From a virus: a stretch of 24,830 nucleotides of DNA. The position numbers were made by a program, and so were the translations under genes. Positions 4,990-19,030 of this stretch are shown here, one piece after another. The stretch lies in the IMG/VR virus record IMGVR_UViG_3300037808_000719, positions 1 through 24,830 of that record. One strand, given 5' to 3'. The notes beneath the pieces were generated by a model. That model was not told the origin of the DNA, did no database searches, and saw nothing but the letters and a program-made list of their open reading frames with translations. Each line of letters starts with the position of its first letter. The stretch's first letter is position 1.

Positions 4990-5061
4990 TTTGTGCGGTC
5001 TGTGTAATAAAATACTATATATAATAACAACTGATTTAAAAATACGAAAGTAAACATAAAT

Positions 5062-5069
5062 CATAAATA
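5062..5069 (+). promoter_or_regulatory. Late-promoter-like box CATAAATA upstream of gene 32
   Basis: One mismatch from TATAAATA, preceded by a partial copy (CATAAATC, overlapping by one base). Predicted +1 near 5075 gives a leader of about 88 bases that contains the structured region described next. Confidence 0.45.
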
Positions 5070-5078
5070 GAACCGAAC

Positions 5079-5130
5079 ATATACATAGGTATATCCAACA
5101 TAACCATGAAGGGAATGTTGATTTAGGTTA
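5079..5130 (+). promoter_or_regulatory. Candidate gene 32 autogenous operator (hairpins or pseudoknot)
   Basis: In the gene 32 leader, ATATAC (5079-5084) pairs with GTATAT (5089-5094). CAACAT (5096-5101) pairs with ATGTTG (5115-5120), and its loop carries AACC (5102-5105), complementary to GGTT (5126-5129). T4 gene 32 is translationally self-repressed through a leader pseudoknot followed by unstructured RNA. The crossing helices here suggest an analogue, although the first connecting loop would have zero length, so two alternative hairpins are also possible. Confidence 0.35.
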
Positions 5131-5162
5131 ACACGAAAAGGTAATTACACAGGAGAAAGAAT

Positions 5163-6125
5163 ATGGCTTCATTAGCAGATATCCGTGCCCGTTTAGAGGC
5201 ACAAGAACACAAACCAGCAAACAACAATCAATCAGGTGGGTTAACATACCCTCATTGGAAAATTAACGAAGGTTCACAGGCAATCTTACGTTTCTTACCA
5301 GACGCAAACGAAGAAAATCCATTCTTTTGGGTAGAGCGAGCAATGATTAAATTGCCGTTCCCTGGCATCAAGGACCGTGACGCAAAAGATGTAATTGTGC
5401 AAGTTCCGTGTATGGAAATGTACGGTGACAATGAAGTATGTCCAATATTAGCGGAAGTACGTCCGTGGTTTAAGGATAAGTCAATGGAAGATATGGGTCG
5501 TAAATATTGGAAGAAACGTACGTACGTATTCCAAGGATTAGTACATCAAGACCCAATTGGAGAAGATAATGTGCCGGAAAATCCAATTCGTAAGTTTATG
5601 ATTAGTCCGCAAATCTTTACTATCATTAAGGCTAGTTTAATGGACCCTGAAATGGAAGATTTACCAACAGATTACACTAATGGTTTAGATTTCCGTGTTA
5701 CTAAGACAAGTAAGGGCGGATATGCAGATTACAGTACAAGCACTTGGTCACGTAAAGAAACAGTATTATCTGCAGAAGAAGTACAAGCAATTGAGACATT
5801 TGGTCTAAATGATTTAAGTTCGTGGCTACCACCAAAACCAAACGAAGTTGAATTGAAAATTATTCACGAAATGTTCGAAGCAAGTGTTGATGGTCAGCAG
5901 TACGACGTAGAGAAATGGGGTAACTATTACCGTCCATGGGGCGTTGATAAACCTTCTGGTAATGCACCGATTGTAACTCCGATTGCAGATGTATCTACAA
6001 TGGGTGATTCGCCATTCCAAGAACCAACATCAGAAGTTAAAACTGCAGATGTATCTGGGGCGGATGTGAGTAGCACCAAACCAGAAGATATTTTGGCACA
6101 GATTAGAGCAAGACAAAACGCATAA
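5163..6125 (+). CDS. gp32: Single-stranded DNA-binding protein, T4 gp32-like
   Basis: This 320-residue protein coats single-stranded DNA at the fork and organises recombination and repair with UvsX/UvsY. The N-terminal basic segment (MASLADIRARLEAQ) corresponds to the cooperative-binding domain. The core contains VQVPCMEMYGD and EVCPI (C83, C93) followed by KYWKKRTYVFQGLVHQDP, typical of marine gp32 proteins. The C-terminal 60 residues are low complexity and acidic, as expected for the protein-interaction tail. T4 gp32 uses three Cys and one His for zinc; only two Cys stand out here, so zinc binding may be lost or altered. A strong Shine-Dalgarno (CAGGAGAAAGAAT before ATG) fixes the start. 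It has its own promoter and terminator and heads the gp32-uvsX-uvsY block. Confidence 0.92.
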   Translation: MASLADIRARLEAQEHKPANNNQSGGLTYPHWKINEGSQAILRFLPDANEENPFFWVERAMIKLPFPGIKDRDAKDVIVQVPCMEMYGDNEVCPILAEVRPWFKDKSMEDMGRKYWKKRTYVFQGLVHQDPIGEDNVPENPIRKFMISPQIFTIIKASLMDPEMEDLPTDYTNGLDFRVTKTSKGGYADYSTSTWSRKETVLSAEEVQAIETFGLNDLSSWLPPKPNEVELKIIHEMFEASVDGQQYDVEKWGNYYRPWGVDKPSGNAPIVTPIADVSTMGDSPFQEPTSEVKTADVSGADVSSTKPEDILAQIRARQNA

Positions 6126-6142
6126 TCAATCAACAACCAATG

Positions 6143-6174
6143 AAGGCAGTATTTTTATATACTGCCTTTTTTAA
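6143..6174 (+). terminator. Intrinsic terminator after gene 32
   Basis: AAGGCAGTAT (6143-6152) and ATACTGCCTT (6159-6168) form a perfect 10-base-pair stem with a 6-base loop, followed by a T run through 6172. This is the clearest rho-independent terminator in the window. It separates gene 32 from uvsX, as also occurs after T4 gene 32. Confidence 0.9.
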
Positions 6175-6191
6175 TTTAAAAAGGATTTATT

Positions 6192-7322
6192 ATGGGAAAA
6201 CCATTTGACGTAAGTAAATTTAGAAAGAGTATAACAAAATCAATTGATGGGTTGTCAATTGGATTCAATGACCCAACTGATTGGATTTCAACCGGAAATT
6301 ATGCATTGAACTACTTAGTATCAGGGGACTTTAATAAAGGAATTCCGTTAGGCAAAGTTACTGTATTTGCTGGGGAATCTGGTGCTGGTAAGTCGTACTT
6401 TGCTTCGGGAAATATCATTAAAAACGCACAGGAACAAGATATCTTTGTTGTACTGATTGATTCCGAGAATGCTTTGGACGAAGCATGGTTACAGGCACTT
6501 GGTGTAGATACAGACCCTGCTAAGTTATTAAAACTTAGTTTATGTATGATTGACGATGTTGCTAAAACAATTAGTACGTTTATGATTGATTACAAAGCAA
6601 TGGCAGAAGAAGATAGACCAAAGGTACTATTTGTAATTGATTCACTTGGGATGTTATTAACACCAACTGATGTTAAACAGTTTGAAGCAGGTGACATGAA
6701 AGGTGACTTAGGACGTAAACCAAAGGCATTAACATCACTTGTGCGCAATACAGTTAATATGATTGGTGCTTATAACGTAGGAATCATTGCTACAAACCAC
6801 ACATACGCATCGCAGGATATGTTTGACCCAGATGATAAGATTAGTGGCGGACAAGGCTTTATTTACGCTTCATCTATTGTAGTTGCTATGCGTAAACTTA
6901 AACTAAAAGAAGATGCAGATGGCAACAAAGTGACCGATGTTAAAGGTATTAGAGCGGCGTGTAAGGTAATGAAAACACGTTATGCTAAGCCATTCGAAGC
7001 AGTACAAGTTAAAATTCCATACGAAACAGGAATGAACCCGTACAGTGGATTGACAGACTTAGCAGAGAAACAAGGTTTACTTACCAAGCAAGGTAACCGT
7101 TTAAAGTATCTACCTAAAGGTGCAGAAGAAGGTGAAGAAATTCTTATGTTCCGAAAAGCATGGGAAAAGAATACGGATGGTGCATTAGACACATTGATGG
7201 CAGACATCAGTGCGGAAGATGAGGCAATCTATGATGATATCGATGCTAAACCAACAACTGAAAACATCGAAGCAATGGAAGTTGAAAAAGATTTATCAGA
7301 GGAGTTAGAAAGTGAGTCTTGA
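6192..7322 (+). CDS. uvsX: UvsX, RecA-like recombinase
   Basis: This 376-residue phage RecA homologue forms filaments on single-stranded DNA and drives strand invasion for recombination-dependent replication. Walker A is GESGAGKS (residues 61-68), Walker B is VLFVIDSLGM (145-154, D150), and an ATNHTY segment and an ISGGQGF DNA-binding loop follow. The C-terminal tail is strongly acidic, as in UvsX proteins that interact with UvsY and gp32. AAGGA at 6179-6183 is the Shine-Dalgarno for ATG 6192. The final codons carry the ribosome binding site (GGAG, 7300-7303) of the next gene and overlap it by 11 bases, so the two are translationally coupled. Length is close to T4 UvsX (391). Confidence 0.95.
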   Translation: MGKPFDVSKFRKSITKSIDGLSIGFNDPTDWISTGNYALNYLVSGDFNKGIPLGKVTVFAGESGAGKSYFASGNIIKNAQEQDIFVVLIDSENALDEAWLQALGVDTDPAKLLKLSLCMIDDVAKTISTFMIDYKAMAEEDRPKVLFVIDSLGMLLTPTDVKQFEAGDMKGDLGRKPKALTSLVRNTVNMIGAYNVGIIATNHTYASQDMFDPDDKISGGQGFIYASSIVVAMRKLKLKEDADGNKVTDVKGIRAACKVMKTRYAKPFEAVQVKIPYETGMNPYSGLTDLAEKQGLLTKQGNRLKYLPKGAEEGEEILMFRKAWEKNTDGALDTLMADISAEDEAIYDDIDAKPTTENIEAMEVEKDLSEELESES

Positions 7323-7530
7323 ATTACAATTAGAAATATGGGAAGTACTACAAGAACATATCGTTGACATCAAAGATGCTGCAGATGATTTTGTGGCATT
7401 ATTGATTGAGAATGGAATTGATGGTGAAAAAATTGCCGACATAACAACGAATGATGATATCAAAAAGGCATTATTAGATTATATCGATGTGGAAGTTGAT
7501 GAAGACTACGACGACGACGACGAGTATTAA
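7312..7530 (+). CDS. Small acidic protein between uvsX and uvsY
   Basis: A 72-residue protein that starts with GTG at 7312, chosen because GGAG lies 8 bases upstream and the start overlaps the end of uvsX. It is predicted alpha-helical and ends in an extremely acidic stretch (VDEDYDDDDEY). No known domain is recognised. The coupled position between uvsX and uvsY suggests a role with the recombinase, and the acidic tail could be a DNA mimic or protein contact, but this is only inference. Confidence 0.75.
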   Translation: MSLELQLEIWEVLQEHIVDIKDAADDFVALLIENGIDGEKIADITTNDDIKKALLDYIDVEVDEDYDDDDEY

Positions 7531-7535
7531 GTGAT

Positions 7536-7988
7536 ATGTGGTACGCAAAAGTAACACAAGATTTATCATCAATCCCTCGCTTTATTGACTACTATGATAA
7601 GGAGATAACTAAAGCGAAAGGTGAGGTGATTCTCAATGGGCATGTTGAAACTAATATCAAGGAATTGCCTGGTATCACTGAGAAACGTTTTTATCAATTG
7701 CAGGAAGTAGAAGCGGTATTGGAGTTCCTTAACATCGAACTGCGACGTATCCGACGCAAACATTTTAAGAAATATCTTGAAACATATGCACGAGCATTAA
7801 GTAGCAGGGATGCTGAAAAATATGCCGATGGTGAGGATGAGGTGATTGATTTTGAGTTATTAATCAATGAGGTCGCGTTAATAAGGAATCGTTGGTTAGG
7901 TATTATGAAAGGTTTGGATACGAAGCAATGGCAATTGGGGCATATTGTTAAGTTACGCACTGCGGGCATGGAAGACGTTGTTGTGTGA
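7536..7988 (+). CDS. uvsY: UvsY-like recombination mediator
   Basis: A 150-residue protein recognised as the marine T4-like UvsY type. It begins MWYAKVTQDLSSIPRFIDYY, has a helical core EVEAVLEFLNIELRRIRRKHFKKYLE, and ends with ALIRNRWLGIMKGLDTKQWQ. UvsY (137 residues in T4) loads UvsX onto gp32-covered single-stranded DNA; the basic helix RRIRRKHFKK fits DNA contact. It starts 5 bases after the preceding stop. The location directly downstream of uvsX supports the assignment. Its 3' end overlaps the probable start of the fucosyltransferase-like gene. Confidence 0.85.
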   Translation: MWYAKVTQDLSSIPRFIDYYDKEITKAKGEVILNGHVETNIKELPGITEKRFYQLQEVEAVLEFLNIELRRIRRKHFKKYLETYARALSSRDAEKYADGEDEVIDFELLINEVALIRNRWLGIMKGLDTKQWQLGHIVKLRTAGMEDVVV

Positions 7989-9000
7989 TACACGTAGTAA
8001 ATTTCTATATGTCAATGGGGTATTAGTTTACAACGCTTGGGATAATGATTTTGATATAATCAGGAAAGGAAATTTCCTCACACTATTCAAAGAACAGATG
8101 GTGCTAGAGAATATATCGATTCCTGCGTTGTGTATATTTGATTGTACCAATGAAGGTGTGGGTGCATCGGACATTGGCAATATGGTCAACGCAATCACAA
8201 CATGTTTCACAACAGAAGTTCGTGTTCTATTCAATGTGGTAACTAACCATCATTCCACCTACGAATATAAATGCTTCCCTACACATATGGTTGCGCATTG
8301 TCAATTCCTGCGTCACGTAAATTCATTGAATATAAATTGGGATGATATCGTTGTTGATAGGTATTTCTTATCATTGCAACGCCGTGCATCGCTTAGTAGG
8401 GTCAAATTTACTAAGATGCTGTTAGACACGTTTGATGAGAATCAATATATTATCAGTTGTGCATCACAACCCGATGCATGGATGCATAAATCAAATGCAA
8501 TATCTGATGCATTTCATCCACGTACACTACCTGTTCTCGTTGATGGTGTAGTAGATGGTGATGATAAACAACATCATCACACTAACGAATCATTCTTCAA
8601 GTGTCTTATTAATATAATATCAGAGACTAGTTCACAAACTGATGATGATAGTTGGCGAGATATATTCATAACTGAAAAAACATTTAAAGCATTTGCTTAT
8701 AGGCAACTGCCGTTGTGGTTTGCTGTTCCAAGAACAGTTGCTGTAGTTAGGGATATGGGATTTGATGTATTTGATGATATTATCAATCACTCGTATGATT
8801 ATGAAGAGGATGAAACTGTTCGTATGAAAATGGTGGTCGATGAATTAAGAACGTTCCTCAACAATTATACATATGATGTAATGAATAGTTTGCGAACTCA
8901 GTTATGGAACAGGATAAATAAAAACATGGAATTATTAACCAAGTTGGAATCTACCCATAACATAATTAAGAATAAACTTATATTGGAGTTAATTAAATGA
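7981..9000 (+). CDS. Fucosyltransferase-like protein (uncertain N-terminus)
   Basis: About 339 residues. The C-terminal half carries the conserved block seen in the partial gene at 3-623: TEKTFKAFAYRQLPLWF (from about residue 231), then MGFDVFDDIINHSYDYEEDE and RMKMVVDEL. This resembles the sugar-nucleotide-binding half of GT10 fucosyltransferase-like proteins. There is no in-frame ATG before 8098 (MVLENIS), which would remove a strand-like segment. TTG at 7981 is preferred because GGAAG lies 6 bases upstream and it overlaps uvsY by only 8 bases; TTG 7945 and TTG 7978 are alternatives. A GTGA overlap at 7985 opens another frame (IHVVNFYMSMGY) that stops after 13 codons, so a frameshift near 8013-8020 is possible. 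It is coupled to the methyltransferase by an ATGA overlap. The substrate is unknown. Confidence 0.65.
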   Translation: MCDTRSKFLYVNGVLVYNAWDNDFDIIRKGNFLTLFKEQMVLENISIPALCIFDCTNEGVGASDIGNMVNAITTCFTTEVRVLFNVVTNHHSTYEYKCFPTHMVAHCQFLRHVNSLNINWDDIVVDRYFLSLQRRASLSRVKFTKMLLDTFDENQYIISCASQPDAWMHKSNAISDAFHPRTLPVLVDGVVDGDDKQHHHTNESFFKCLINIISETSSQTDDDSWRDIFITEKTFKAFAYRQLPLWFAVPRTVAVVRDMGFDVFDDIINHSYDYEEDETVRMKMVVDELRTFLNNYTYDVMNSLRTQLWNRINKNMELLTKLESTHNIIKNKLILELIK

Positions 9001-9737
9001 GTTTTAGTTCAGCATATGATAGCCATCAACATAGTTTAGAAACACTTGAATTACTATATGCATATCCTGATTTTATGGAAAGCATTGGTAGTGTTTGTGA
9101 TATGGGATGTGGTAAGGAAGGGTTAGATTTAGAATGGTGGGCAACTAGAGAAATTGATGATGATTCCATTATTCAATTGAATATAAATTGCACTGGAATT
9201 GATATTAATAGCAAGTTATTGATACAACACCAAAACATAAAATACATACAGCACGATTTCGAAGTTGTATTAGATGAAGAATTCGATGTACTGTATTGTC
9301 ACGACAGTTTTCAGTATGTTATGAACCCATTAATGACACTGAGTAATTGGTATCATATGTTATCTGAGGGTGGCATGTTGGTTTTGCAGATACCAAGCAC
9401 GACTAACATAGAATACAATAAATTGGCATCTTCACAGCCCAACTATCATTACTACAATCACACAATAGATGGGTTAATACATATGTTGGCAGTTAATGGG
9501 TTTGATTGTGAATCTGGATTTTTCCAACAGCAAGTAAACGACAATTGGATTAAAGTAATCGTTTACAAAAGTGATGTATCTCCATTAAATCCAAAAACCG
9601 CAACGTGGTATGACTTGGCAGACAAAGGATTAATCCCAAAGACTGGTGTCGAAAGTATTAATAAATACGGTTATATGAAACGTGAAGATTTGGTTCTTCC
9701 GTGGTTAGATTATAGTAATATTTGGTACGGACAATAA
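8997..9737 (+). CDS. Class I SAM-dependent methyltransferase
   Basis: A 246-residue Rossmann-fold methyltransferase. Motif I is VCDMGCGKEG (residues 33-42), an acidic strand end (GIDINSK) serves as motif II, a DVLYCHDSFQYVMNP segment follows, and then the post-motif GGMLVLQIPS. It resembles small-molecule or sugar methyltransferases (UbiE/Methyltransf_11 style) rather than a DNA methylase: no DPPY or PCQ motif was seen. TTGGAG upstream and the ATGA overlap with the preceding gene fix the start. It sits between the fucosyltransferase-like and cytidylyltransferase-cupin genes, so a role in modifying a sugar or glycan is a reasonable inference. Confidence 0.8.
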   Translation: MSFSSAYDSHQHSLETLELLYAYPDFMESIGSVCDMGCGKEGLDLEWWATREIDDDSIIQLNINCTGIDINSKLLIQHQNIKYIQHDFEVVLDEEFDVLYCHDSFQYVMNPLMTLSNWYHMLSEGGMLVLQIPSTTNIEYNKLASSQPNYHYYNHTIDGLIHMLAVNGFDCESGFFQQQVNDNWIKVIVYKSDVSPLNPKTATWYDLADKGLIPKTGVESINKYGYMKREDLVLPWLDYSNIWYGQ

Positions 9738-9738
9738 T

Positions 9739-10500
9739 ATGCAAGTAGCGTTAATTACCGGCGGCTTTGACCCTATACACAGTGGGCATTTAGAGTACAT
9801 AAAAGAAGCACAGAAGTACGGTAGACTCGTGGTTGCTGTAAACAGTGATGAATGGCTAGTACGTAAAAAAGGTCGTGCGTTTATGCCATTAAGTGAACGT
9901 GTGGAGATACTACGTAACATAAAGGGTGTACAGGATGTAATAGTGTTTGATGATGGTGATGATAGTGCATGCGATGCTATAAAAATGACTGCACGTTTAT
10001 ATCACGGTGCTACTATTAACTTTTTAAATGGTGGCGATAGAGTTGAGGGTAATATACCCGAGATGAGAACATGTCCTACTTGGATGGATATTAAATTTCA
10101 TTTTAGTGTAGGTGGAGATAATAAAAAGAATTCGTCGTCATGGATATTACAAGAATGGTTGGCACCAAAGATTGAACGAGATTGGGGTCACTATAGAGTT
10201 ATACACGAAACAAGTACACATAAAGTTAAGGAACTTACTGTAGAACCTGGAAAAACCTTAAGTCTACAAAAACATCACCATCGTAGTGAATTTTGGTTTG
10301 TGTCTGAGGGTCTTGCCACTGTTGAGCAAGGTAATAACTCACGTATTTTATCTAATAGAGAATATGCGGTATATGAACAACTTGTGATACCTGTAGATTC
10401 GTGGCATAGGTTAAGCAACCGTACCAACGAACCTGTGCGTATTATAGAAATACAATATGGTACGCAATGTATTGAAGAAGATATCGTCAGTATTGTATAA
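9739..10500 (+). CDS. Cytidylyltransferase-cupin fusion (nucleotide-sugar type)
   Basis: A 253-residue two-domain protein. Residues 1-130 are an HxGH nucleotidyltransferase (GGFDPIHSGH, 8-17, and GGDR, 98-101), of the glycerol-3-phosphate/ heptose cytidylyl- or adenylyltransferase class. Residues 150-253 are a cupin of the type II mannose-6-phosphate isomerase kind, with the metal-binding HHHRSEFWFV (179-188), a later His in DSWHR (223), and the typical ending IIEIQYGTQCIEEDIV. In ManC-type enzymes a related cupin is fused to a GTP-mannose transferase; here the partner fold is different. Likely role: activating and isomerising a phosphorylated sugar for the neighbouring transferase. The start is one base after the methyltransferase stop, and the stop overlaps a late promoter. 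Confidence 0.85.
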   Translation: MQVALITGGFDPIHSGHLEYIKEAQKYGRLVVAVNSDEWLVRKKGRAFMPLSERVEILRNIKGVQDVIVFDDGDDSACDAIKMTARLYHGATINFLNGGDRVEGNIPEMRTCPTWMDIKFHFSVGGDNKKNSSSWILQEWLAPKIERDWGHYRVIHETSTHKVKELTVEPGKTLSLQKHHHRSEFWFVSEGLATVEQGNNSRILSNREYAVYEQLVIPVDSWHRLSNRTNEPVRIIEIQYGTQCIEEDIVSIV

Positions 10501-10515
10501 ATAGTAGTATAAATA
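10496..10515 (+). promoter_or_regulatory. Two tandem perfect late promoters
   Basis: TATAAATA occurs at 10496-10503 and again at 10508-10515, 12 bases apart. Predicted starts are near 10509 and 10521; the second gives an 18-base leader containing CGGAGAAATAAC before ATG 10539. The doubled box plus a good Shine-Dalgarno predicts heavy late expression of the downstream gene. Confidence 0.75.
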
Positions 10516-10538
10516 TATTAACATACGGAGAAATAACA

Positions 10539-11018
10539 ATGCCATCAAGAACAATCAAAGTTTTCGGACACAGTAGCGGCGCAACTATAACATTTAATTT
10601 TAATGGTGTCGAGGTTTTTAACGGAAATATAACTGCTGGCGGAGCACCGGACACTTTAGTAGAATTATTCACCTTTGACATATCGACTGATGTGGTTGGT
10701 AGTGTTACAAGCACAACCACTGTTTCGGCTGGTGAAGTAACACTAGTGATGATAAGTGCCAATTATTCAACTGAAGTAACAACTGAAACAACTGATGACG
10801 AAGGGAATGTTTTTCCTGCAGTTACAGGGGTAGATTTACCTACTAACTTCAATTGGATGTCAGATGCAACTAACTTATCATCTACTAATAGAACAACTGA
10901 TGGTGTAGTAGCACCTGCGGTTGATGGGGCATCTCCTGTTGGTGCATTGCATAATCCTATATCTGCAGGTGAGGTTTTTACTGCTGATTGGACTATCAAC
11001 ACTGCAATTATAAGTTAA
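10539..11018 (+). CDS. Probable virion structural or decoration protein
   Basis: A 159-residue Thr/Ser/Val-rich, beta-rich protein without signal peptide or membrane segment. The N-terminal half (RTIKVFGHSSGATITFNFNGVEVFNG) looks like a beta-sandwich of the carbohydrate-binding or Ig-like kind found in phage capsid and tail decoration proteins. The second half, after a TEVTTETTDDEGN linker, is Asn/Gly/Pro-rich. The tandem late promoters and strong Shine-Dalgarno support an abundant late product. Nothing shows an enzymatic site. The stop codon lies in a 13-base tandem duplication, followed by the early promoter of the AAA+ gene. Structural role is inference from composition and regulation. Confidence 0.75.
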   Translation: MPSRTIKVFGHSSGATITFNFNGVEVFNGNITAGGAPDTLVELFTFDISTDVVGSVTSTTTVSAGEVTLVMISANYSTEVTTETTDDEGNVFPAVTGVDLPTNFNWMSDATNLSSTNRTTDGVVAPAVDGASPVGALHNPISAGEVFTADWTINTAIIS

Positions 11019-11030
11019 AATTATAAGTTA
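11006..11030 (+). repeat. 13-base tandem duplication across a stop codon
   Basis: AATTATAAGTTA occurs at 11006-11017 and again at 11019-11030. The first copy contains the stop codon of the structural gene and the second abuts the -35 element of the next promoter. Confidence 0.85.
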
Positions 11031-11060
11031 TTAACATTTTTTCTAAAAACTAAGTATAAT
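11031..11060 (+). promoter_or_regulatory. Sigma70-type promoter for the AAA+ ATPase gene
   Basis: TTAACA (11031-11036), an 18-base spacer and a perfect TATAAT (11055-11060). Predicted start is about 11067, leaving a leader of about 33 bases. This is the best host-type (early) promoter in the window. Its -10 box lies inside the left arm of the inverted repeat at 11055-11100. Confidence 0.7.
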
Positions 11061-11100
11061 ACTCCCTACAACTTAAAAAACACTTGTAGGGAGTATTGTA
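11055..11100 (+). promoter_or_regulatory. Hairpin sequestering the AAA+ gene ribosome binding site
   Basis: Bases 11055-11071 pair with 11084-11100 (17 pairs, one G-T, with a perfect 14-base-pair core AATACTCCCTACAA) around a 12-base loop. The right arm contains AGGGAG, the Shine-Dalgarno for ATG 11100. RNA reading through from upstream could fold and hide it, while RNA begun at the internal promoter (about 11067) lacks most of the left arm. No T run follows, so a simple terminator is less likely. Confidence 0.6.
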
Positions 11101-12128
11101 TGAAGGTAATTGTCCGCCATGGTTCGCATCGCAACCAAATAATTAAAAATAAAATATTTGAATTAGTCAGAGGTATACCCTCGAATGTCGATATTAATGG
11201 TTCGTTCATTCTGGTTAAACCAACCAAGACAGTTGGTGATGGTCGGCAGAAAACAGTTAGAATTACTGTCACAAGGGACAATTTAGAAATTTTAACTCCG
11301 AAGAAATACAAGAAAGTTAAAGTTGTGAAGAAACCTGTTGTTAAAAAAGAAACCGACGAGCAGATTATAAAGAGAATTTCTGAGCGGTTTGCTATATTGG
11401 AAGAAATGACAAGGGCAACTATCGCCACTGATATTAAAGCAATGATAGTATCTGGTCCTCCTGGTGTTGGTAAATCATATGGTGTTGAGGGGCAACTTGC
11501 GAAAGCAAGTATGTTTGATGTTATTGCTACAGTTAATCAAAAATACGAAGTAATCAAGGGTGCCATTACTCCAATTAAATTGTACACTGCGTTGTATAAG
11601 CATTCTGGTGAAGGGCATGTTCTCGTTTTTGACGACTGTGACATGTTGCTACAGGATGACTTAAGTCTTAATTTGCTCAAAGCGGCGCTGGACAGTGGTA
11701 CCAAGCGTAGGGTTTTTTGGAGTTCGGAAAGCCATACATTGCGTAGAGAAGGAATTCCGAATGCATTTGATTTTGAAGGTGCTGTGATTTTTATCACAAA
11801 CTTGAAGTTTGACAACGTGCGTAGTAAGAAATTAAAAGACCACTTAGAAGCATTGCAAAGTAGATGCCATTATTTGGACTTAACATTAGACACAATGCAT
11901 GATAAATTATTGCGTGTAAGACAAATCGCAGAAACAGGTGAATTATTCAATGATTATAACTTGAGTGATAAACAGGGAAATGAAATCATAACATTCATGC
12001 AGACTCATAAGAACGATTTGCGTGAAATGAGTCTCCGAATGGCATTGAAGATAGCAGATTTGCGTACAATTAGTGAAAAGCGATGGAAATTGCTCGCTAA
12101 AAATACATGCATGAACAATAGTTTTTAA
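11100..12128 (+). CDS. AAA+ ATPase of marine T4-like phages
   Basis: A 342-residue protein. A basic N-terminal region (about 1-110) with a lysine-rich stretch KKYKKVKVVKKPVVKK (68-83) is followed by an AAA+ core. Walker A is GPPGVGKS (119-126), Walker B is VLVFDDCD (174-181), a sensor-1-like AVIFITN follows, then SKKLKDHLEALQSRCHYLDL, which looks like the arginine-finger/sensor region. I recognise the core as common in marine T4-like phages but without known function; it resembles single-domain clamp-loader or Holliday-helicase-like ATPases more than gp44. ATG 11100 is supported by AGGGAG six bases upstream. The sigma70-type promoter suggests early expression, unlike its late-promoter neighbour. 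Confidence 0.85.
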   Translation: MKVIVRHGSHRNQIIKNKIFELVRGIPSNVDINGSFILVKPTKTVGDGRQKTVRITVTRDNLEILTPKKYKKVKVVKKPVVKKETDEQIIKRISERFAILEEMTRATIATDIKAMIVSGPPGVGKSYGVEGQLAKASMFDVIATVNQKYEVIKGAITPIKLYTALYKHSGEGHVLVFDDCDMLLQDDLSLNLLKAALDSGTKRRVFWSSESHTLRREGIPNAFDFEGAVIFITNLKFDNVRSKKLKDHLEALQSRCHYLDLTLDTMHDKLLRVRQIAETGELFNDYNLSDKQGNEIITFMQTHKNDLREMSLRMALKIADLRTISEKRWKLLAKNTCMNNSF

Positions 12129-12150
12129 CAGGTTCGGTATGTGTTTATTG

Positions 12151-12165
12151 TGTTATAAGTATAAC
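12151..12165 (+). promoter_or_regulatory. Possible extended -10 promoter
   Basis: TGTTATAAG (12151-12159) fits the extended -10 pattern TGnTATAAT with one mismatch, and an overlapping TATAAC lies at 12160-12165. No -35 element is evident. The context AAGTATAAC then CTCCCTA repeats that of the promoter at 11052-11068. Confidence 0.35.
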
Positions 12166-12228
12166 CTCCCTAAATGAACACTACCAAACAGATGCAAGGC
12201 ACCCCCTATATTGTCTTGTGTCAAACTC

Positions 12229-12271
12229 GGGTACAAAGTTTTAGTCACATCCTTTTGTTGGCTTTGTACCC
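12229..12271 (+). other. Inverted repeat upstream of SGNH gene 1
   Basis: GGGTACAAAG (12229-12238) pairs perfectly with CTTTGTACCC (12262-12271) around a 23-base loop, in the leader of the gene at 12304. No T tract follows, so it is more likely a regulatory RNA stem or protein-binding site than a terminator. Confidence 0.5.
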
Positions 12272-12303
12272 ACCTTACTTATATATTAATTAATTGTTAC
12301 ACT

Positions 12304-13098
12304 ATGCATAAAAAAACAATTTTAATATCGGGACCATGTTATTCGAGTGGGACTGGATTGCAATACGAAAAGACAGATAATAAACTGTGGGTGAATCAAT
12401 TAGCCTCACACTTCAACTTAGACGTTGATAATATATCCCATATTGGTAAAGGCAATAAAGAAATATTTTTACATACTGCGTCATCGTTGATTAATAAAAA
12501 ATACAATTACGCAATTGTACAATGGAGAGAAATCCCATGTGAACATATACATTATGGGTTAGAGATGTATTCAACTAAATCGGGTTTAATCAATGATGTG
12601 CATATAGTCAACGACATACATTTGGTTAATGGTATTACATTAGATGCATCTGTTATGGAAAATGCAAGACAATATAATATGCAATACCAAAAGGCGCATT
12701 GGGGGATAAAAGATTTGTTGTACTATGTGAATATTTTAGTAAATCTAGCAAAACAACAAAACTGCAAGTTACTATTTACGAACTATGACATGCCATGGGG
12801 TTCACATCGATACTTTGATAAGATACAATTTGATAAACCATCTGACTTAGATGCATTCACACAAAATATGTTAGATGTGTCGGTTAGGGATGATGATGAA
12901 ATATCAATATTGTATGACAAAGTACATGCAGACTATAGTAGTATAGGTTCAATACATGAGGATAAATGGATAAATTTATATGACCCTATGGTTCGTTTAA
13001 AAGTGGATACAGCAAGTAGTGATGATAGTCACCCAGGTTACAAAAGCCATGATAAATTTTCCGATTTCTTTATTAAACATTTAATTGATATATTTTAA
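12304..13098 (+). CDS. SGNH/GDSL-type hydrolase-like protein 1
   Basis: A 264-residue protein. Block I is SGPCYSSGTG (residues 9-18), a variant of GDS with candidate nucleophile S14 or S15; GKGN (near 49-52) resembles block II; and near the C-terminus DDSHPGYKSHDKFSDFF gives the DxxHP block V with catalytic Asp and His. SGNH enzymes are esterases or acetyltransferase partners that often act on O-acyl groups of sugars. ATG 12304 is used because it places block I nine residues from the N-terminus; an extension from TTG 12211 runs through a hairpin and is rejected. No Shine-Dalgarno is visible. It is one of three SGNH genes in the window. The target is unknown. Confidence 0.75.
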   Translation: MHKKTILISGPCYSSGTGLQYEKTDNKLWVNQLASHFNLDVDNISHIGKGNKEIFLHTASSLINKKYNYAIVQWREIPCEHIHYGLEMYSTKSGLINDVHIVNDIHLVNGITLDASVMENARQYNMQYQKAHWGIKDLLYYVNILVNLAKQQNCKLLFTNYDMPWGSHRYFDKIQFDKPSDLDAFTQNMLDVSVRDDDEISILYDKVHADYSSIGSIHEDKWINLYDPMVRLKVDTASSDDSHPGYKSHDKFSDFFIKHLIDIF

Positions 13099-13113
13099 AC
13101 ACAATAACATATT

Positions 13114-14574
13114 ATGAAAACAGCAACAATAGTAGTAAGAGACGAAGTTAATTGTTCTATCAAGGGGTTGGACATTGATATGAGAAAGAAACTCGTTCAT
13201 GCATTTGAGTATGAAATTCCTGGTGCAAGGTTTATGCCATCGTATAGATTAGGAAGATGGAACGGAAAGGTTTCGTTCTTTAATCTTGGTGGAAGTACAT
13301 ATATCAATTTACTCCCCGATATTCTTCCTATGTTAATTGACGATAGTTGGGAAATAGAGGTTGATGATAAACGACAATACCAACATGATTATGAGTTGGC
13401 AGAAGTTGATAAAGATACTTACAATCACATCACGTGGCCAAAAAAACACCCCATTGAAGGTGAACCAATTGTACTTCGTAATTACCAAATAGAGGTTGTT
13501 AATAACTTCCTAAAAAATCCACAATGTATTCAAGAAGTAGCAACAGGAGCAGGAAAAACATTAGTGACTGCGGCACTAAGTGAACGTGTGCAGGAATACG
13601 GTAGAAGTATCTTGATTGTTCCTAATAAAAGTTTAGTAGTACAAACTGAGGAAGATTATATTAATATGGGGTTGGATGTTGGTGTATTCTATGGCAAACA
13701 ACGTGACTATGGCAAACAACACATGATATGTACGTGGCAGAGTTTGAATATCATGATGAAGGATACTAAGAGTGGAAAGGCAGAAGTTACCATAGGTGAG
13801 TTTCTAGAGGGAGTTGTATGTGTTATGGTGGATGAGGCACATAGTGCAAAGGCAAATGCATTGAAGACTATTTTAACAGGTCCTATGTCACACATCCCAT
13901 TGCGATGGGGTTTGACTGGAACAGTTCCTAAAGAGAAATTTGAGTTCCAATCATTGTACGTGGGGTTAGGAAATGTAGTTAATAAAGTGTCAGCAAAGGA
14001 ATTGCAAGACAAAGGAGTATTGGCTCGGTGTCAAGTTAAGGTTGTGCAATTACTAGACCATGCAGAGCATGCAAATTATCAAAGTGAGTTAAAGTATTTA
14101 CTAACTGATTCGAACCGCTTGGATGTGTTAGTGGAACTCATTACAAAGGCAAACGTTACGGGAAACACATTGGTGCTTGTTGACCGAGTTGAGTCTGGTG
14201 AAGAGTTAGTAAAGAGATTAGGTGATAACGCAGTATTTGTTAGTGGCGTTACTAAAACTGAAGATAGAAAAGGGCATTATGATGAAGTCGCTGATTCCTC
14301 CGATAAGATTATAGTAGCAACATATGGCGTTGCTTCGGTTGGAATTAATATTCCTAGAATCTTCAATCTTATGTTACTCGAACCTGGTAAGTCGTTCGTT
14401 CGTGTGATACAATCAATCGGTCGTGGTGTACGTAAAGCGAAGGATAAGGACTTTGTTCAAATTTGGGACATCACTAGTACGTGTAAGTTTGCTAAGAGGC
14501 ACCTAACGAAGCGTAAGAAGTTTTATAAAGAAGCACAATACCCATTCACCATAGAAAAATTGGAATGGAAGTAA
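13114..14574 (+). CDS. uvsW: UvsW, RNA-DNA and DNA branch helicase (SF2)
   Basis: A 486-residue superfamily 2 helicase. The N-terminal domain (about 1-115) contains the UvsW-type FMPSYRLGRWNGKVSFF. The helicase core has Walker A ATGAGKT (143-149), a DEAH box (VDEAHSAKA, D240-H243), motif III GLTGTVP and motif VI QSIGRGVRK. In T4, UvsW unwinds R-loops at origins and remodels forks and Holliday structures, switching replication from origin- to recombination-dependent mode. Length is near T4 UvsW (about 500). No Shine-Dalgarno precedes ATG 13114. The last six codons (EKLEWK) form the left arm of a 15-base-pair inverted repeat that spans the stop codon. Confidence 0.93.
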   Translation: MKTATIVVRDEVNCSIKGLDIDMRKKLVHAFEYEIPGARFMPSYRLGRWNGKVSFFNLGGSTYINLLPDILPMLIDDSWEIEVDDKRQYQHDYELAEVDKDTYNHITWPKKHPIEGEPIVLRNYQIEVVNNFLKNPQCIQEVATGAGKTLVTAALSERVQEYGRSILIVPNKSLVVQTEEDYINMGLDVGVFYGKQRDYGKQHMICTWQSLNIMMKDTKSGKAEVTIGEFLEGVVCVMVDEAHSAKANALKTILTGPMSHIPLRWGLTGTVPKEKFEFQSLYVGLGNVVNKVSAKELQDKGVLARCQVKVVQLLDHAEHANYQSELKYLLTDSNRLDVLVELITKANVTGNTLVLVDRVESGEELVKRLGDNAVFVSGVTKTEDRKGHYDEVADSSDKIIVATYGVASVGINIPRIFNLMLLEPGKSFVRVIQSIGRGVRKAKDKDFVQIWDITSTCKFAKRHLTKRKKFYKEAQYPFTIEKLEWK

Positions 14575-14603
14575 CATAAATAAATTATTTCCATTCCAAT
14601 TTT
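14556..14603 (+). terminator. 15-base-pair inverted repeat over the uvsW stop codon
   Basis: AAAATTGGAATGGAA (14556-14570) pairs perfectly with TTCCATTCCAATTTT (14589-14603). The 18-base loop holds the stop codon and a CATAAATA box. The stem ends in TTTT but has no long T run. It could terminate uvsW transcripts or protect their 3' end; translating ribosomes would cover the left arm. Confidence 0.5.
14575..14582 (+). promoter_or_regulatory. Late-promoter-like box CATAAATA inside a hairpin loop
   Basis: One mismatch from TATAAATA. Predicted start near 14588 coincides with the beginning of the right arm of the inverted repeat, so RNA from this promoter would not form the hairpin. Next gene starts at 14668. 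Confidence 0.35.
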
Positions 14604-14655
14604 ACTTAAAGGCAAGTTATGGTAGTATGTACTATGATAAGTATTTTCTTTAAGA

Positions 14656-14661
14656 TATAAT
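14656..14661 (+). promoter_or_regulatory. TATAAT box six bases before ATG 14668
   Basis: A perfect TATAAT whose predicted start is the A of the ATG itself. No -35 element is recognisable 16-18 bases upstream. The same spacing and a similar sequence precede the primase ATG at 20117. Confidence 0.3.
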
Positions 14662-14667
14662 AACTAC

Positions 14668-15168
14668 ATGAAAATACATACATTAGACGACACAGCATAC
14701 GAACTAAACGAATTACCAGAAACAATCAATGATATGTGGTTTGCTATATTTGATAATAGCAATCCAAAGGACGCAGATTACTTTTTCGTTCCATTGATAT
14801 TTTTGGAAAGTTTCACATCGCCTGCATTGGTTTTGCGGATAGGTGAGCATGTTATTAAAATGCCATTAGATTGGCAATTGCTTATTGGTGAACCTGACAC
14901 AGGAGATTTAGAGGCAATTCCGTTGACCAGTATTAATGACAGAGATTTCAAAGCATTTTCTTTCAATAGTCTAAGTAGTTACGACGCAAACTTTCTGCCC
15001 GTTGAGGTTATAGACGTATACAACGAAGTTCAATGGTACAATCCAAAACTTAAAAATGGACAATACTTGGCAGTACCGTTAAGTGAAGGTGAGTCACCCA
15101 CGGTTGTGTATTTCATCAAAGATGCATCAAGAAATTGCCAAGTGGTTGATTACGCACAGGCGTGGTAA
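14668..15168 (+). CDS. Conserved protein of unknown function upstream of gp62-like gene
   Basis: A 166-residue acidic protein with mixed alpha/beta character. The central part (LVLRIGEHVIKMPLDWQLLIGEPDTGDLEAIPL, in two strands) and EVQWYNPKLKNGQYLAVPLSEG near the C-terminus are patterns I have seen in marine T4-like phages, without a function. It has no nucleotide-binding motif and no membrane segment. It abuts the gp62-like gene with no gap (stop at 15166-15168, next ATG at 15169), so the two are probably co-translated and it may belong to the replication apparatus. A divergent sliding clamp is conceivable but the protein is short for one and I cannot support it. Confidence 0.75.
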   Translation: MKIHTLDDTAYELNELPETINDMWFAIFDNSNPKDADYFFVPLIFLESFTSPALVLRIGEHVIKMPLDWQLLIGEPDTGDLEAIPLTSINDRDFKAFSFNSLSSYDANFLPVEVIDVYNEVQWYNPKLKNGQYLAVPLSEGESPTVVYFIKDASRNCQVVDYAQAW

Positions 15169-15615
15169 ATGGCACACAAATTAGATATATTTAAGGTATT
15201 ACGGGCAATTGATTCAAAAGATTATGATTTCTATGACAACATGTCAGATGAAGAGAAAAAGGGATTCAGTGCTTTTCTTGGTTTGAAATGGGGTGCTGGT
15301 GTGGAAAGTGATGTATTGACGCAATGTCTTTATGTCATAGGCATGAATAATAGAGCAAACAGACACATGTTCGATATAAACAGAGACCCTAAATTGCAAT
15401 GGTTGACATTAGTAGCGGGAAGTCCTAAGTTAGGAAATCAACGACATGTATGGGCATCAACAAAAAATAAAGCAATTACATCTAGTGTTAAAACTAGGCA
15501 ATCTAAATTGACAAAACTATTCCCTCATTACAAAGATGATGAAATTGAATTATTGAGTAACTTAGTTACAACAAGGCAAATAACAGAATATGCGAAAGAC
15601 TGTGGAGAAAAGTAA
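15169..15615 (+). CDS. Clamp-loader small subunit, gp62-like
   Basis: A 148-residue protein. The N-terminus HKLDIFKVLRAIDSKDYDFYDNMSDEEKKGF and the middle LQWLTLVAGSPKLGNQRHVW resemble the small clamp-loader subunit of marine T4-like phages; gp62 joins the gp44 ATPase to load the gp45 ring for the phage polymerase. T4 gp62 is 187 residues, so this is short. The assignment rests on recalled pattern and on the replication context (uvsW upstream, DnaE-like protein downstream); gp44 and gp45 are not in this window. The end overlaps the next gene by 26 bases. Confidence 0.6.
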   Translation: MAHKLDIFKVLRAIDSKDYDFYDNMSDEEKKGFSAFLGLKWGAGVESDVLTQCLYVIGMNNRANRHMFDINRDPKLQWLTLVAGSPKLGNQRHVWASTKNKAITSSVKTRQSKLTKLFPHYKDDEIELLSNLVTTRQITEYAKDCGEK

Positions 15616-16288
15616 GGTATATACATGTAAATATTGCGATAAGGATTTCAAGCGAGAAACTACATTAATGGTGCACTTATGTGAGCGGAAAAGACGATGG
15701 CAGGAAAAGGACGTTAAAGGTGTCCGTATTGGGTTTAACGCTTTTATAAAATTTTTCCAATACACACAGAATTCAAAAAAACCAAAGACACAAATGGAAT
15801 TTATCAGAAGTAAATTCTATGTCGGATTCGTTAAGTTTGGAAGATATTGTGTTGATATTAGTGCAATAAATGTTAATAATTTTATCGAGTATGTTATCAA
15901 GAAGAATAAAAAACTTGATTATTGGACTAGTGATACGTTATATTCGGAATACATGGATACTCTACTGACGACTGAGAATCCAATTGATACATTGGCACGT
16001 GCTATAAAATACAGTATGGTATGGGCGGAGAATAATGACACCGATAGCAAGGATGTTCTTAGGTATGGAAACAAAAATGTCATTTGTTATGCAATCACAA
16101 CGGGGAAAATAAGCCCTTGGGTTCTTTATAACTGTACGAGTGGAAAGAACTTCTTACATAATTTAACACAAGAGCAAACTGAATTAATATGGGAATACAT
16201 TAATCCGTCTGTATGGGAGGGAAAATTTAAAGATTTCCCAACAGATACTAACTACATTAATGGAATATTATCACAGGCGGGATGGTAA
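15590..16288 (+). CDS. Zinc-finger protein of marine T4-like phages
   Basis: A 232-residue protein. A single N-terminal zinc finger, YTCKYCDKDFKRETTLMVHL then C (C13, C16, H29, C31), is followed by a basic cluster ERKRRWQEK and a conserved alpha-helical domain. Recognisable blocks are KFYVGFVKFGRYCVDISAINVNNFIEYVIKKNKKLDYW (read in two halves), LRYGN and SPWVLYN, and a C-terminal LSQAGW. I recognise it as a conserved marine phage family of unknown function. The finger plus basic patch suggests DNA or RNA binding, and its place between a clamp-loader-like gene and a DnaE-like gene points to replication or transcription. ATG 15590 puts the finger ten residues from the N-terminus; the first 26 bases overlap the previous gene. 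Confidence 0.8.
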   Translation: MRKTVEKSKVYTCKYCDKDFKRETTLMVHLCERKRRWQEKDVKGVRIGFNAFIKFFQYTQNSKKPKTQMEFIRSKFYVGFVKFGRYCVDISAINVNNFIEYVIKKNKKLDYWTSDTLYSEYMDTLLTTENPIDTLARAIKYSMVWAENNDTDSKDVLRYGNKNVICYAITTGKISPWVLYNCTSGKNFLHNLTQEQTELIWEYINPSVWEGKFKDFPTDTNYINGILSQAGW

Positions 16289-16297
16289 CATTATTAC

Positions 16298-16900
16298 ATG
16301 AACACAATATTAATCGCAGGTGATAGTTTCGGCGCAGACTGGACAGTAAAATACACAAATAAAATGGGTTGGCCTAATATTATGGAGAATTCATTTGATG
16401 TAACCAACGTTGCGCAGGCGGGATGCAGTGAGTATAAGATACTGCAACAATTACAAAAAGTTAATTTAAGTGATTATGGTGTGGTTATTGTAAACCACAC
16501 CAGTCCTTATCGTCTTTATGTCAAAGACCATCCCATTCATAAAGATAACGTATTGCACCATTCTAGCGACCTATTGTACGGTGATTTAAAATATCACTTC
16601 GAACAGACACAAGACCAATCTATTATGCCAATTGTTGAGTATTTTGAAAACTACTTTGATATTGATTACGCGAAATTTGTATATAATTTGATATACCGAG
16701 AAATACACACATTATGTGAACCCAACACAATACATCTGAGTCATATTGGCTTATCAGAAATAAAGAAGTTGGAATGCCGTGATATACATGAGATTGATAT
16801 GTTTAAAAACAATTCTGGATTAATGAACCATTACAGCAGTGATGGGAATATTGAAATTGCACGAACCATAACAACAATGGTGAATGGGTTATTAAAATGA
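16298..16900 (+). CDS. SGNH/GDSL-type hydrolase-like protein 2
   Basis: A 200-residue protein with a canonical block I, ILIAGDSFGADW (residues 4-15, nucleophile S10), block II around AQAGCSEYKI (near 39-48) and block III VIVNHTSPYR. A C-terminal His (MNHYSSDGN) could complete the site, but the usual DxxHP is not clear, so catalysis is less certain than for the other two SGNH proteins. It lies between two replication-type genes and overlaps the next by ATGA, so it is expressed with them. Known SGNH enzymes remove acyl groups from glycans or lipids; the target here is unknown. Confidence 0.75.
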   Translation: MNTILIAGDSFGADWTVKYTNKMGWPNIMENSFDVTNVAQAGCSEYKILQQLQKVNLSDYGVVIVNHTSPYRLYVKDHPIHKDNVLHHSSDLLYGDLKYHFEQTQDQSIMPIVEYFENYFDIDYAKFVYNLIYREIHTLCEPNTIHLSHIGLSEIKKLECRDIHEIDMFKNNSGLMNHYSSDGNIEIARTITTMVNGLLK

Positions 16901-17469
16901 AAATGGACGCAGATATAGATATCGATTTCTTTGATAGAGACGATATATTGAAATTAATTAAACATGTGCCAGCGAGACAAGAGACAAATTCTGAATCTAA
17001 GCAACATAATAGTGGAGTGTATGTTACTGATATACCATATGACCCAATGCATAAATGTGCAAGTATTGATTATAAAGAAGCAGAAATGCGCGGATATTTT
17101 AAGATTGATTTCTTGAATGTTAAAATTTACCAACACATAACCAGCCCAAAGCACTATGCCGAATTATTGGCAATGGAACCACCATGGGAAAGGTTGCTTG
17201 ATAAGAATTTCTGTAGTCAACTTATACATATATCAAATCACTTTAATGAAATTGTGACGATGAAGCCTGATAGTATTGCCAGAATGGCAATGTTCTTGGC
17301 ATTGATTAGACCAGCAAAAAAACATTTGATGGGGAAAACGTGGGATGAAATTTCAGATGATGTTTGGTCTAAACCAAATAACAATGCGTACTTTTTTAAA
17401 AAAGCCCACTCAGTAAGTTATGCAATGTTGGTTAAATTACATATGAACATCATTCATCAATGTTCCTAA
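16897..17469 (+). CDS. Miniature DnaE (Pol III alpha)-like protein
   Basis: A 190-residue protein that reads as a condensed catalytic core of bacterial DNA polymerase III alpha, with motifs in the same order. DADIDIDFFDRDDIL (residues 4-18; D6, D8) matches PDFDVDF, which supplies catalytic D401 and D403 of E. coli DnaE. HNSGVYV (37-43) matches HAGGVVI. GYFKIDFLNVKIY (66-78; D71) matches the KFDFLGLRTL motif with catalytic D555. MKPDSIARMAMFLALIRPAKK (122-142) matches QPDCFEDMIALVALFRPGP. YFFKKAHSVSYAML (165-178) matches GFNKSHSAAYALV. The PHP domain, GRGS motif and most of the fingers are absent (DnaE is about 1160 residues). Whether it polymerises, decoys or regulates is unknown. ATG 16897 overlaps the previous stop; ATG 16903 is an alternative. 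Confidence 0.7.
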   Translation: MKMDADIDIDFFDRDDILKLIKHVPARQETNSESKQHNSGVYVTDIPYDPMHKCASIDYKEAEMRGYFKIDFLNVKIYQHITSPKHYAELLAMEPPWERLLDKNFCSQLIHISNHFNEIVTMKPDSIARMAMFLALIRPAKKHLMGKTWDEISDDVWSKPNNNAYFFKKAHSVSYAMLVKLHMNIIHQCS

Positions 17470-17830
17470 TCAATGTTATTGATTTTCTTTTTGTTCGTTT
17501 TTGTGAAATATTATCAAAACTAGTACATGGACCGATGAGTATTGATAGGTTCTTGTTGTTATATGATGTTCTATATGACTTAAATATACTCCACTCATCT
17601 TTAAGGAATAGGTTAATCGGTATGCTTCTGTTTGATTCCCACCACCAAGTCTCACCCAATTCTAAGAACAGTAGTCTCTTTTTTGGGTCACTTATATTGC
17701 CGAAATTGTACATAGTAGTTAATATCTTATCTTGATTCATAATAATACCAATATGTTCTATATTGGCATATTGTATGATTGACAAGAAGGGATATTTTTC
17801 TGCTATTTTGAGAAATAACTCATTTTCCAT
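17450..17830 (-). CDS. Conserved minus-strand phage protein, function unknown
   Basis: A 126-residue protein on the minus strand. The segment LFLELGETWWWESNRSIPINLFL (middle of the protein, split by ET-WWW) and the C-terminal KRTKRKSITLIRNIDE are recurrent in marine T4-like phages; the function is not known. The basic C-terminus could bind nucleic acid. A perfect minus-strand late promoter (17866-17859) lies 29 bases upstream of ATG 17830, so late expression is likely. Its 3' end overlaps the end of the DnaE-like gene by 20 bases. The plus-strand reading frame at 17460-17735 is its shadow. Confidence 0.8.
   Translation of the reverse strand: MENELFLKIAEKYPFLSIIQYANIEHIGIIMNQDKILTTMYNFGNISDPKKRLLFLELGETWWWESNRSIPINLFLKDEWSIFKSYRTSYNNKNLSILIGPCTSFDNISQKRTKRKSITLIRNIDE
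17468..17492 (+). terminator. Candidate intrinsic terminator after the DnaE-like gene
   Basis: AATCAAT (17468-17474) pairs with ATTGATT (17478-17484) around a 3-base loop and is followed by TTCTTTTT. The stem is AT-rich, but position at the stop codon and the T tract fit a terminator. It lies inside the 3' end of the minus-strand gene. Confidence 0.45.
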
Positions 17831-17835
17831 AAATA
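17828..17835 (+). promoter_or_regulatory. Late-promoter-like box CATAAATA, predicted leaderless start
   Basis: One mismatch from TATAAATA. The predicted +1 is 17841, exactly the A of the downstream ATG. The box overlaps the start codon (minus strand, 17828-17830) of the divergent gene. Confidence 0.55.
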
Positions 17836-17840
17836 TTTAA

Positions 17841-18278
17841 ATGTATTCAACTAGAATTTATTTATACAATCAGAGCCAAATTGGGTTTTTCTTTGACCCC
17901 AATGTTACTTCTACTATTCATTTACCGAGGACTAATTACGTGTACTCAAAAATACTAAAAGCAGTTAAAGGCGTGGACACAGTTATAGAGTTCCAATTCC
18001 TTAACCAAGACCAAAAACCTATTAATTTAGAAAACACCACTCTAACATTTAAACTAATTAGTGAGAATGCTGTGCTAATGAGCAAGGCATTAACCATCGT
18101 TACGCCCGCAAAAGGTAAAGCAACAATAACACTAACAAGCAACGATTTAACTGCTGTAGAAACGCAACGTGCTAATTACAGCATAGAGCGTGTGTTTAAC
18201 TCATTAACAGAGTTTGCTTACGTGGATGAACAAGCAGGAACACAGGGCGTGATGGATATACTACCTGCATTAACATAA
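17841..18278 (+). CDS. Probable virion protein, BppU N-domain-like
   Basis: A 145-residue beta-rich protein. The segment DTVIEFQFLNQDQKPINLEN then TTLTFKLISENAVLMSKALTIVTPAKGKATITLTSNDL resembles the N-terminal Ig-like domain of phage baseplate upper proteins (BppU_N) and related T4-like structural proteins. No enzymatic motif or membrane segment is present. The late box directly at the ATG, with no Shine-Dalgarno, predicts a leaderless late mRNA. The stop codon runs straight into an (AT)11 tract. Virion location is inferred from fold resemblance and late expression. Confidence 0.75.
   Translation: MYSTRIYLYNQSQIGFFFDPNVTSTIHLPRTNYVYSKILKAVKGVDTVIEFQFLNQDQKPINLENTTLTFKLISENAVLMSKALTIVTPAKGKATITLTSNDLTAVETQRANYSIERVFNSLTEFAYVDEQAGTQGVMDILPALT
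17859..17866 (-). promoter_or_regulatory. Minus-strand perfect late promoter inside a divergent gene
   Basis: TATAAATA on the minus strand, located in codons 7-9 of the plus-strand virion gene. Predicted +1 near 17853 gives a 23-base leader for the minus-strand gene starting at 17830. It is interlocked with the plus-strand box at 17828-17835. Confidence 0.65.
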
Positions 18279-18299
18279 TATATATATATATATATATAT
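18278..18299. repeat. (AT)11 tract upstream of phoH
   Basis: Twenty-two bases of strictly alternating AT, beginning at the stop codon of the virion gene and ending 17 bases before the phoH start. It may slip during replication and could melt or form a cruciform. Confidence 0.9.
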
Positions 18300-18316
18300 C
18301 ATTAATAGGACTATAA

Positions 18317-19030
18317 ATGGGAAAGAATAAGAAGTCGAATGCAGGAGCAAGTATTGTTTCAAAATTGCATTTGAAACTAGCAGAAATTGAACCAATTACA
18401 ATAGCACAAGGAGATTTTTTTAAGAATTACGATACTGGAAAGTGTCAATTGTTAATGGGTTATCCAGGAACAGGCAAAACGTTCCTTAGTATGTATAAAG
18501 CATTTGAGGAGTTAATCAATGGCGGTACAGACTTAAATCAAATTGTTATTGTGCGTAGTGCAGTGCCAACACGAGACATTGGCTTCCTGCCAGGTGATAT
18601 TAACGAAAAACAGCAAGTATATGAACTACCGTACAAAAAGGTATGTTCTGAACTGTTTGGAAGAGACGATGCGTATGAGATTTTAGTTAAACATGGTATT
18701 GTACGTTTTATGATTACATCGTACGTACGTGGTATTACACTAGACAACTGTATTATCATTATGGATGAATTCCAGAACTGTACGTCACATGAAGCAGATT
18801 CTGTATTAACTAGACTCGGTAAGAAATCAAAGGCGTTATTTTGCGGTGACTTTATGCAAACCGACTTTGTTAAAGATAAAGACAAGGACGTTTGTAAATT
18901 CGTAGAAGTATTAAAATCAATGCCTACTTGGTTTCAAACAAATGAGTTCGGCGTAGATGACATTGTGCGCTCTGGATTAGTTAAAGCGTACATTCGTGCT
19001 AAGTATCTAGTACACAAAGACGGGTTCTAG
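18317..19030 (+). CDS. phoH: PhoH-like P-loop ATPase
   Basis: A 237-residue PhoH-family ATPase. Walker A is GYPGTGKT (residues 48-55), the family signature VRSAVPTRDIGFLPGD lies at 79-94, Walker B is IIIMDEFQN (146-154), and the sensor-like CGDFMQTD follows. PhoH is widespread in marine phages; it is associated with phosphate stress in bacteria and probably acts on RNA, but its phage role is not settled. TAGGACTATAA upstream supplies a Shine-Dalgarno for ATG 18317. An (AT)11 tract lies just upstream. The next gene begins immediately after the stop, apparently without a standard start codon. Confidence 0.93.
   Translation: MGKNKKSNAGASIVSKLHLKLAEIEPITIAQGDFFKNYDTGKCQLLMGYPGTGKTFLSMYKAFEELINGGTDLNQIVIVRSAVPTRDIGFLPGDINEKQQVYELPYKKVCSELFGRDDAYEILVKHGIVRFMITSYVRGITLDNCIIIMDEFQNCTSHEADSVLTRLGKKSKALFCGDFMQTDFVKDKDKDVCKFVEVLKSMPTWFQTNEFGVDDIVRSGLVKAYIRAKYLVHKDGF

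Follow-up and report, generated by a model that had tools for sequence, protein, structure and literature searches.

A hairpin that joins an early promoter to the ribosome binding site (RBS) of an AAA+-type ATPase gene is best read, with a probability that we put at about 0.66, as a cis-acting RNA insulator by which RNA from the gene's own early promoter would be translated and late read-through RNA would not. The window, that is the whole stretch of 24,830 nucleotides analysed here, is a 24.8-kb fragment of an uncultured phage that belongs to a T4-related group. In the proposed mechanism, RNA begun at the putative late promoters at 10496-10515, or at any promoter further upstream, would run into the AAA+ gene, as no terminator intervenes. 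In such read-through RNA, the bases running from the -10 box up to the early start would pair with the Shine-Dalgarno sequence AGGGAG and mask the RBS, so that the AAA+ protein would not be made. RNA from the early promoter, without most of the left arm, would be translated. The features concerned are as follows.

10496-10503 and 10508-10515, + strand: two TATAAATA motifs, probable late promoters (T4 type) for the upstream gene
10539..11018, + strand: upstream gene, 159 aa, no known family, probably late
11031..11036, + strand: -35 box TTAACA, read from the sequence, part of the early promoter
11055..11060, + strand: -10 box TATAAT, read from the sequence, inside the left arm of the hairpin
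11054..11071, + strand: left arm of the hairpin, holding the -10 box and the stretch up to +1
11067..11068, + strand: predicted transcription start, placed by spacing 7-8 bases past TATAAT
11084..11101, + strand: right arm of the hairpin, with the RBS and the first bases of the start codon
11088..11093, + strand: Shine-Dalgarno AGGGAG, 6 bases upstream of ATG 11100
11100..12128, + strand: AAA+-type ATPase gene, PHROG 1250, homologue of T4 nrdC.10

The initial annotation had described a promoter embedded in a 17-bp inverted repeat whose right arm contains AGGGAG, with a predicted start near 11067 that removes most of the left arm, and each of these elements was recovered. The promoter, TTAACA-18-TATAAT at 11031-11060, was read directly, with TATAAT in the left arm. 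It matches at 11 of 12 positions and ranks top of the 88 sigma70-type sites found in a scan of 5000-24830, a class that as such is not commoner there than chance (89 expected in shuffles). The inverted repeat (11055-11071/11084-11100) has arms of 17 nt that are 94% complementary and a 12-nt loop; as RNA, with G-U pairs included, it extends to a stem of 18 bp (11054-11071/11084-11101). A 111-nt stretch folds at -26.6 kcal/mol compared to -15.5 +/- 2.9 kcal/mol for shuffles (z = -3.9, none of 200 shuffles as good). Furthermore, when the RBS was fixed and the upstream sequence shuffled, masking in the window amounted to 20.7 vs 7.3 +/- 2.6 kcal/mol, a value equalled by none of 700 shuffles (p = 0.0014). 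The predicted +1 is T 11067 or, more likely given the purine preference at +1, A 11068, and either start leaves just 4-5 bp of the stem. In seven relatives whose arm lies at the window's place, an A occupies +7.

A terminator search of the + strand from 10515 to 11060 gave none. The hairpin itself was considered as an intrinsic terminator, defined as a G+C-rich stem with a T run, and rejected, as it has no T run. Rfam returned no match above the gathering score in 10400-11300. Within the window, TTGTAGGGAGTA occurs exactly solely in this hairpin, and is thus not a repeated element. As a general motif before ATG it was dropped, most of its matches in the viral collection being unrelated.

Folding predictions agree with the earlier claim that read-through RNA hides the RBS and that RNA from the internal promoter leaves it open. 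For long RNA, with its 5' end at 10510, 10522 or 10900, the predicted cost of opening AGGGAG is 20.5-20.6 kcal/mol. In short RNA, which from its predicted start lacks 13-14 of the 18 left-arm bases, the predicted cost is 2.3-2.5 kcal/mol for a start at 11068 or 11067 and 4.2 kcal/mol for a start at 11066; a start 2-3 bases further upstream than assumed would leave 6-9 kcal/mol of masking in the early RNA. The stop codon of the upstream gene (11016-11018) ends about 35-36 bases before the stem, so a terminating ribosome should not open it.

The 159-aa upstream protein has no match in PHROG, Pfam or cultured phages. Eleven relatives have a homologue of its gene at the corresponding position (phmmer E 2.4e-14 or better), and in all of them, as in the window, NATAAATA precedes the start of the gene by 31-49 bases. 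The late promoter motif is NATAAATA in T4-like cyanophages and TATAAATA in T4 (PMC2984593). The tandem motifs reported initially are present at 10496 and 10508, at a position conserved in the relatives; since the window shows no enrichment of TATAAATA (5 occurrences vs 4.6 expected), its assignment as a late promoter is based on this positional conservation. We infer that the upstream gene is late in the window phage, with NATAAATA acting there as a late promoter. In one relative (L093), a further TATAAATA lies in the intergenic region, past the late gene and ahead of the AAA+ promoter and its TATAAT, and RNA begun at this motif would still include the masking arm.

The AAA+ gene is homologous to T4 nrdC.10 (E 3e-46); T4 nrdC.4 and nrdC.5, also considered as the T4 homologue, were wrong. 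A search of solved structures for the AAA+ protein found nothing. Among 123 distinct loci homologous to the AAA+ gene locus, nearly all have a sigma70-type promoter before the gene, mostly TTGACA/C-17-TATAAT.

The 11 relatives allowed a comparison of arms and terminators. The sequence before the start codon, CTTGTAGGGAGTA, is invariant in the window and all 11, so that pairing was judged against shuffles and between classes of loci rather than by two-sided covariation. In the window, L093, L208, L217, L229, L200 (also numbered L005) and L203 (L010), no terminator separates the late gene from the AAA+ promoter, and opening the RBS in long RNA is predicted to cost 20.7, 10.3, 12.6, 6.6, 11.4, 5.9 and 8.9 kcal/mol, respectively. 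Conversely, L207 (L007), L209 (L231), L124, L204 and L213 (L240) have a terminator between the two genes, and the corresponding costs are 7.0, 5.1, 7.6, 4.7 and 7.5 kcal/mol. Pairing is therefore weaker on average where a terminator is present (one-sided p = 0.037). In short RNA, opening costs 1.3-2.9 kcal/mol throughout the group (L208, 2.5, L229, 2.9, L093, 2.4, L203, 1.3), with the exception of L200 (5.4 kcal/mol), where the RBS is paired in the short RNA too. With the RBS fixed, masking stands out from shuffles in L203 (p = 0.004), L208 and L229 (p = 0.009 each) and L093 (p = 0.026), as in the window, and lies within the shuffle range in two loci without terminator, L217 (p = 0.23) and L200 (p = 0.29). 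Sequence upstream of +1 can thus pair with the RBS in 7 of 7 loci lacking a terminator, clearly in five and weakly in L217 and L200. L207 combines a terminator with a good hairpin.

Comparison of the sequences indicates that the arms are not one inherited sequence, as both their sequence and their position differ among the relatives. The arm runs from the -10 box to +1 in L093, L208, L229, L207, L209 and L124, and in L208 TATAATACCCTTACA pairs with TGTAGGGAGTATTATA through one G-U pair and one bulge. In L200 (TACTCCC) and L203 (CCTACAA), the arm lies upstream of the -10 box. The geometry of the dyad varies accordingly among relatives, and in each case all or most of the arm precedes the expected +1, so that the gene's own transcript would lack it. 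In the protein tree, the window groups with L200, L203, L204 and L213 (100/100), none of which has such an arm after the -10 box; the arm of the window was therefore probably gained separately. L229 and L207 are identical in the arm and the RBS beside the -10 box and differ in the late gene upstream, with a terminator present in L207 and absent in L229; here recombination immediately ahead of the promoter seems to have exchanged the late gene.

Among the 123 loci, a homologue of the late gene lies directly upstream in 38, and a terminator precedes the promoter in 31 of these, as called by a detector that also fires in 11 of 120 coding stretches. The seven without terminator comprise six from the window's group and L285; L229 is one more, added by hand. 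L285 had been taken as an exception, with a late-type gene upstream, no terminator and no arm, and was set aside, another gene with its own promoter intervening. The four largest differences between long and short RNA in the cost of RBS opening among the 123 loci were those of the window, L208, L093 and L203. Without terminator, the differences were 18.2, 10.2, 8.5 (L229), 8.0, 7.6, 4.6, 1.2 and -0.2 kcal/mol; with terminator, the median was 0.7 and the maximum 5.9 kcal/mol. The contrast between both classes (Mann-Whitney p = 0.0009) and that between loci without terminator and loci with other upstream genes (p = 3e-5) come from tests that ignore the kinship of the loci, and these p-values therefore overstate independence. 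In a natural control, L220, which has AGGGAG at a similar distance from TATAAT and a different upstream gene, no masking was found (p = 0.74). Outside the close group, L236 has a different RBS, AAGGTAC, and a pairing arm, GTGCCT, directly after TATAAT; its RBS opening costs 6.3 kcal/mol in long and 1.7 kcal/mol in short RNA (shuffle p = 0.04). L236 has a terminator as well.

The comparison in related phages that the initial annotation had proposed thus yielded pairing kept through other sequences (the G-U pair and bulge of L208, the other RBS of L236), arms at different positions in sister phages, and an arm strength that tracks the missing terminator after the late gene. The pattern fits an arrangement in which an early AAA+ gene behind a late gene would be shielded by one of two devices, a terminator or a mask over the RBS that exists only in read-through RNA. 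The late shut-off of the early gene suggested at the outset keeps its masking logic on these comparative grounds; its wording is better replaced by insulation against upstream read-through, because a terminator does the same job in sister phages.

For the window taken alone, the only serious rival is that template switching during replication copied the RBS region in inverted form into the left arm, giving a quasi-palindrome kept by drift without function. The arm indeed repeats the RBS almost perfectly in inverted form, and L204, L213, L200 and L203 lack an arm at the window's place, from which a recent origin of the window arm follows. However, RBS-complementary arms occur at varying positions among the relatives, and in L236 with a different RBS, and they are strongest where no terminator stands between the late gene and the promoter. 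This comparative pattern speaks against a by-product, which we consider unlikely.

A role of the hairpin in the long RNA other than masking, for example in ending or stabilising the late mRNA, in RNase processing or as a temperature switch, appears less probable still. It would be in keeping with a stable stem about 36 bases past the stop codon of the late gene, but neither a T run for termination nor an Rfam match accompanies that stem, and such a role accounts neither for the link between the arm and a missing terminator nor for the fact that the arm always lies upstream of the early start. Least probable of all is a DNA operator in which a repressor or activator would bind the dyad and RNA folding would be incidental. 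A dyad over the -10 box and the start, as seen here, is a usual position of an operator. However, relatives that lack the left arm (L204, L213) still conserve the right arm as an RBS, the position of the arm shifts, and pairing through G-U and a bulge, as in L208, is tolerated by RNA but not by a DNA dyad. Masking of the RBS in read-through RNA thus remains our preferred reading.

The device belongs to a known kind. In T4 e, soc, 49 and I-TevI, as well as T4 segB and Aeh1 mobE, early read-through RNA hides the RBS, and transcripts from a late promoter located in the left arm leave it open (PMC3014915, PMC2988022). The parallel with e and soc drawn in the first reading is borne out by both sources, and all genes so regulated are stated to be late genes (PMC2988022). 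As in T4 e, soc, 49 and I-TevI, the RBS of the AAA+ gene lies in a predicted stable stem of RNA begun upstream, and its own promoter lies in the left arm, which RNA from the predicted start would lack. Unlike in these T4 genes, where both the internal promoter and the gene are late, the internal promoter here is of sigma70 type and the upstream promoter of late type. The anatomy is that of T4 with the promoter classes exchanged, and the mask would therefore act late on an early gene, whereas the T4 masks guard late genes. T4 nrdC.10 itself resembles the AAA+ gene of the window in having its own early-type promoter and being set apart from upstream transcription; in the T4 sequence, however, this is achieved by a UUCG-type terminator, with no RBS mask.

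In its logic, the device comes closest to the protection of insertion sequences. In IS200, one stem terminates impinging transcripts and another occludes the RBS (PMC3196728), the same two devices as found among these phages. Protection of the IS200/IS10 type entails an RBS that is hidden in impinging RNA and free in RNA from the element's own promoter, and the folds predict the same for the AAA+ gene. The genes guarded in that way are transposase genes at the ends of mobile elements, shielded against any neighbour, whereas the AAA+ gene (PHROG 1250) is a fixed gene of the phage that follows a conserved late gene. IS10 and IS50 are also protected from outside transcription. A statement on read-through protection was not found in the literature on IS10, Tn5 and ISPpu9. 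A search of the open literature for the mirror case in phages, an early gene masked on late RNA, found none, which is weak evidence of absence.

In L209, L028, L024, L041 and L047, the -35 box of the AAA+ promoter (TTGACA/T) is embedded in a hairpin with a T run behind it, as in AAAGTGGTTGACAAAACCACTTTTTGGTGCTATAAT of L028; L315, L306, L320 and L332 are doubtful cases. L246 and L247 have a similar terminator-like hairpin at another promoter upstream. An early promoter embedded in a terminator-like element is perhaps a further insulation device.

Taken jointly, these observations raise a broader reading to which we give even odds: that an early gene behind a late gene needs insulation, that a terminator, a promoter with its -35 box in a terminator hairpin and an RBS-masking arm are exchanged at one spot, and that the last of these would be the first described phage mask of an early gene on late RNA. 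Where phages carry early and late genes head to tail, late transcription must be kept from re-expressing early genes. If the reading holds, one masking device works in both directions, and the exchange of terminator and mask among relatives is a natural experiment on gene timing when neighbours are swapped. With the -10 box, the start site and the pairing to the RBS overlapping in about 45 bases, the arrangement would offer a compact route to deafness toward upstream transcription.

Elsewhere in the window, an inverted repeat at 14553-14606, with 22-nt arms that are 91% complementary, lies at the end of a UvsW-type helicase gene and carries the late-promoter-like CATAAATA in its loop at 14575. 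A strong terminator-like hairpin (6142-6169) follows the gene for a single-strand-binding protein, and 9739-10500 encodes a cytidylyltransferase-cupin fusion. Two ORFs among the replication genes, 2198-3505 (- strand) and 21121-22206 (+ strand), contain the radical-SAM-like cysteine motifs CNIACRSC and CNLGCIMC.
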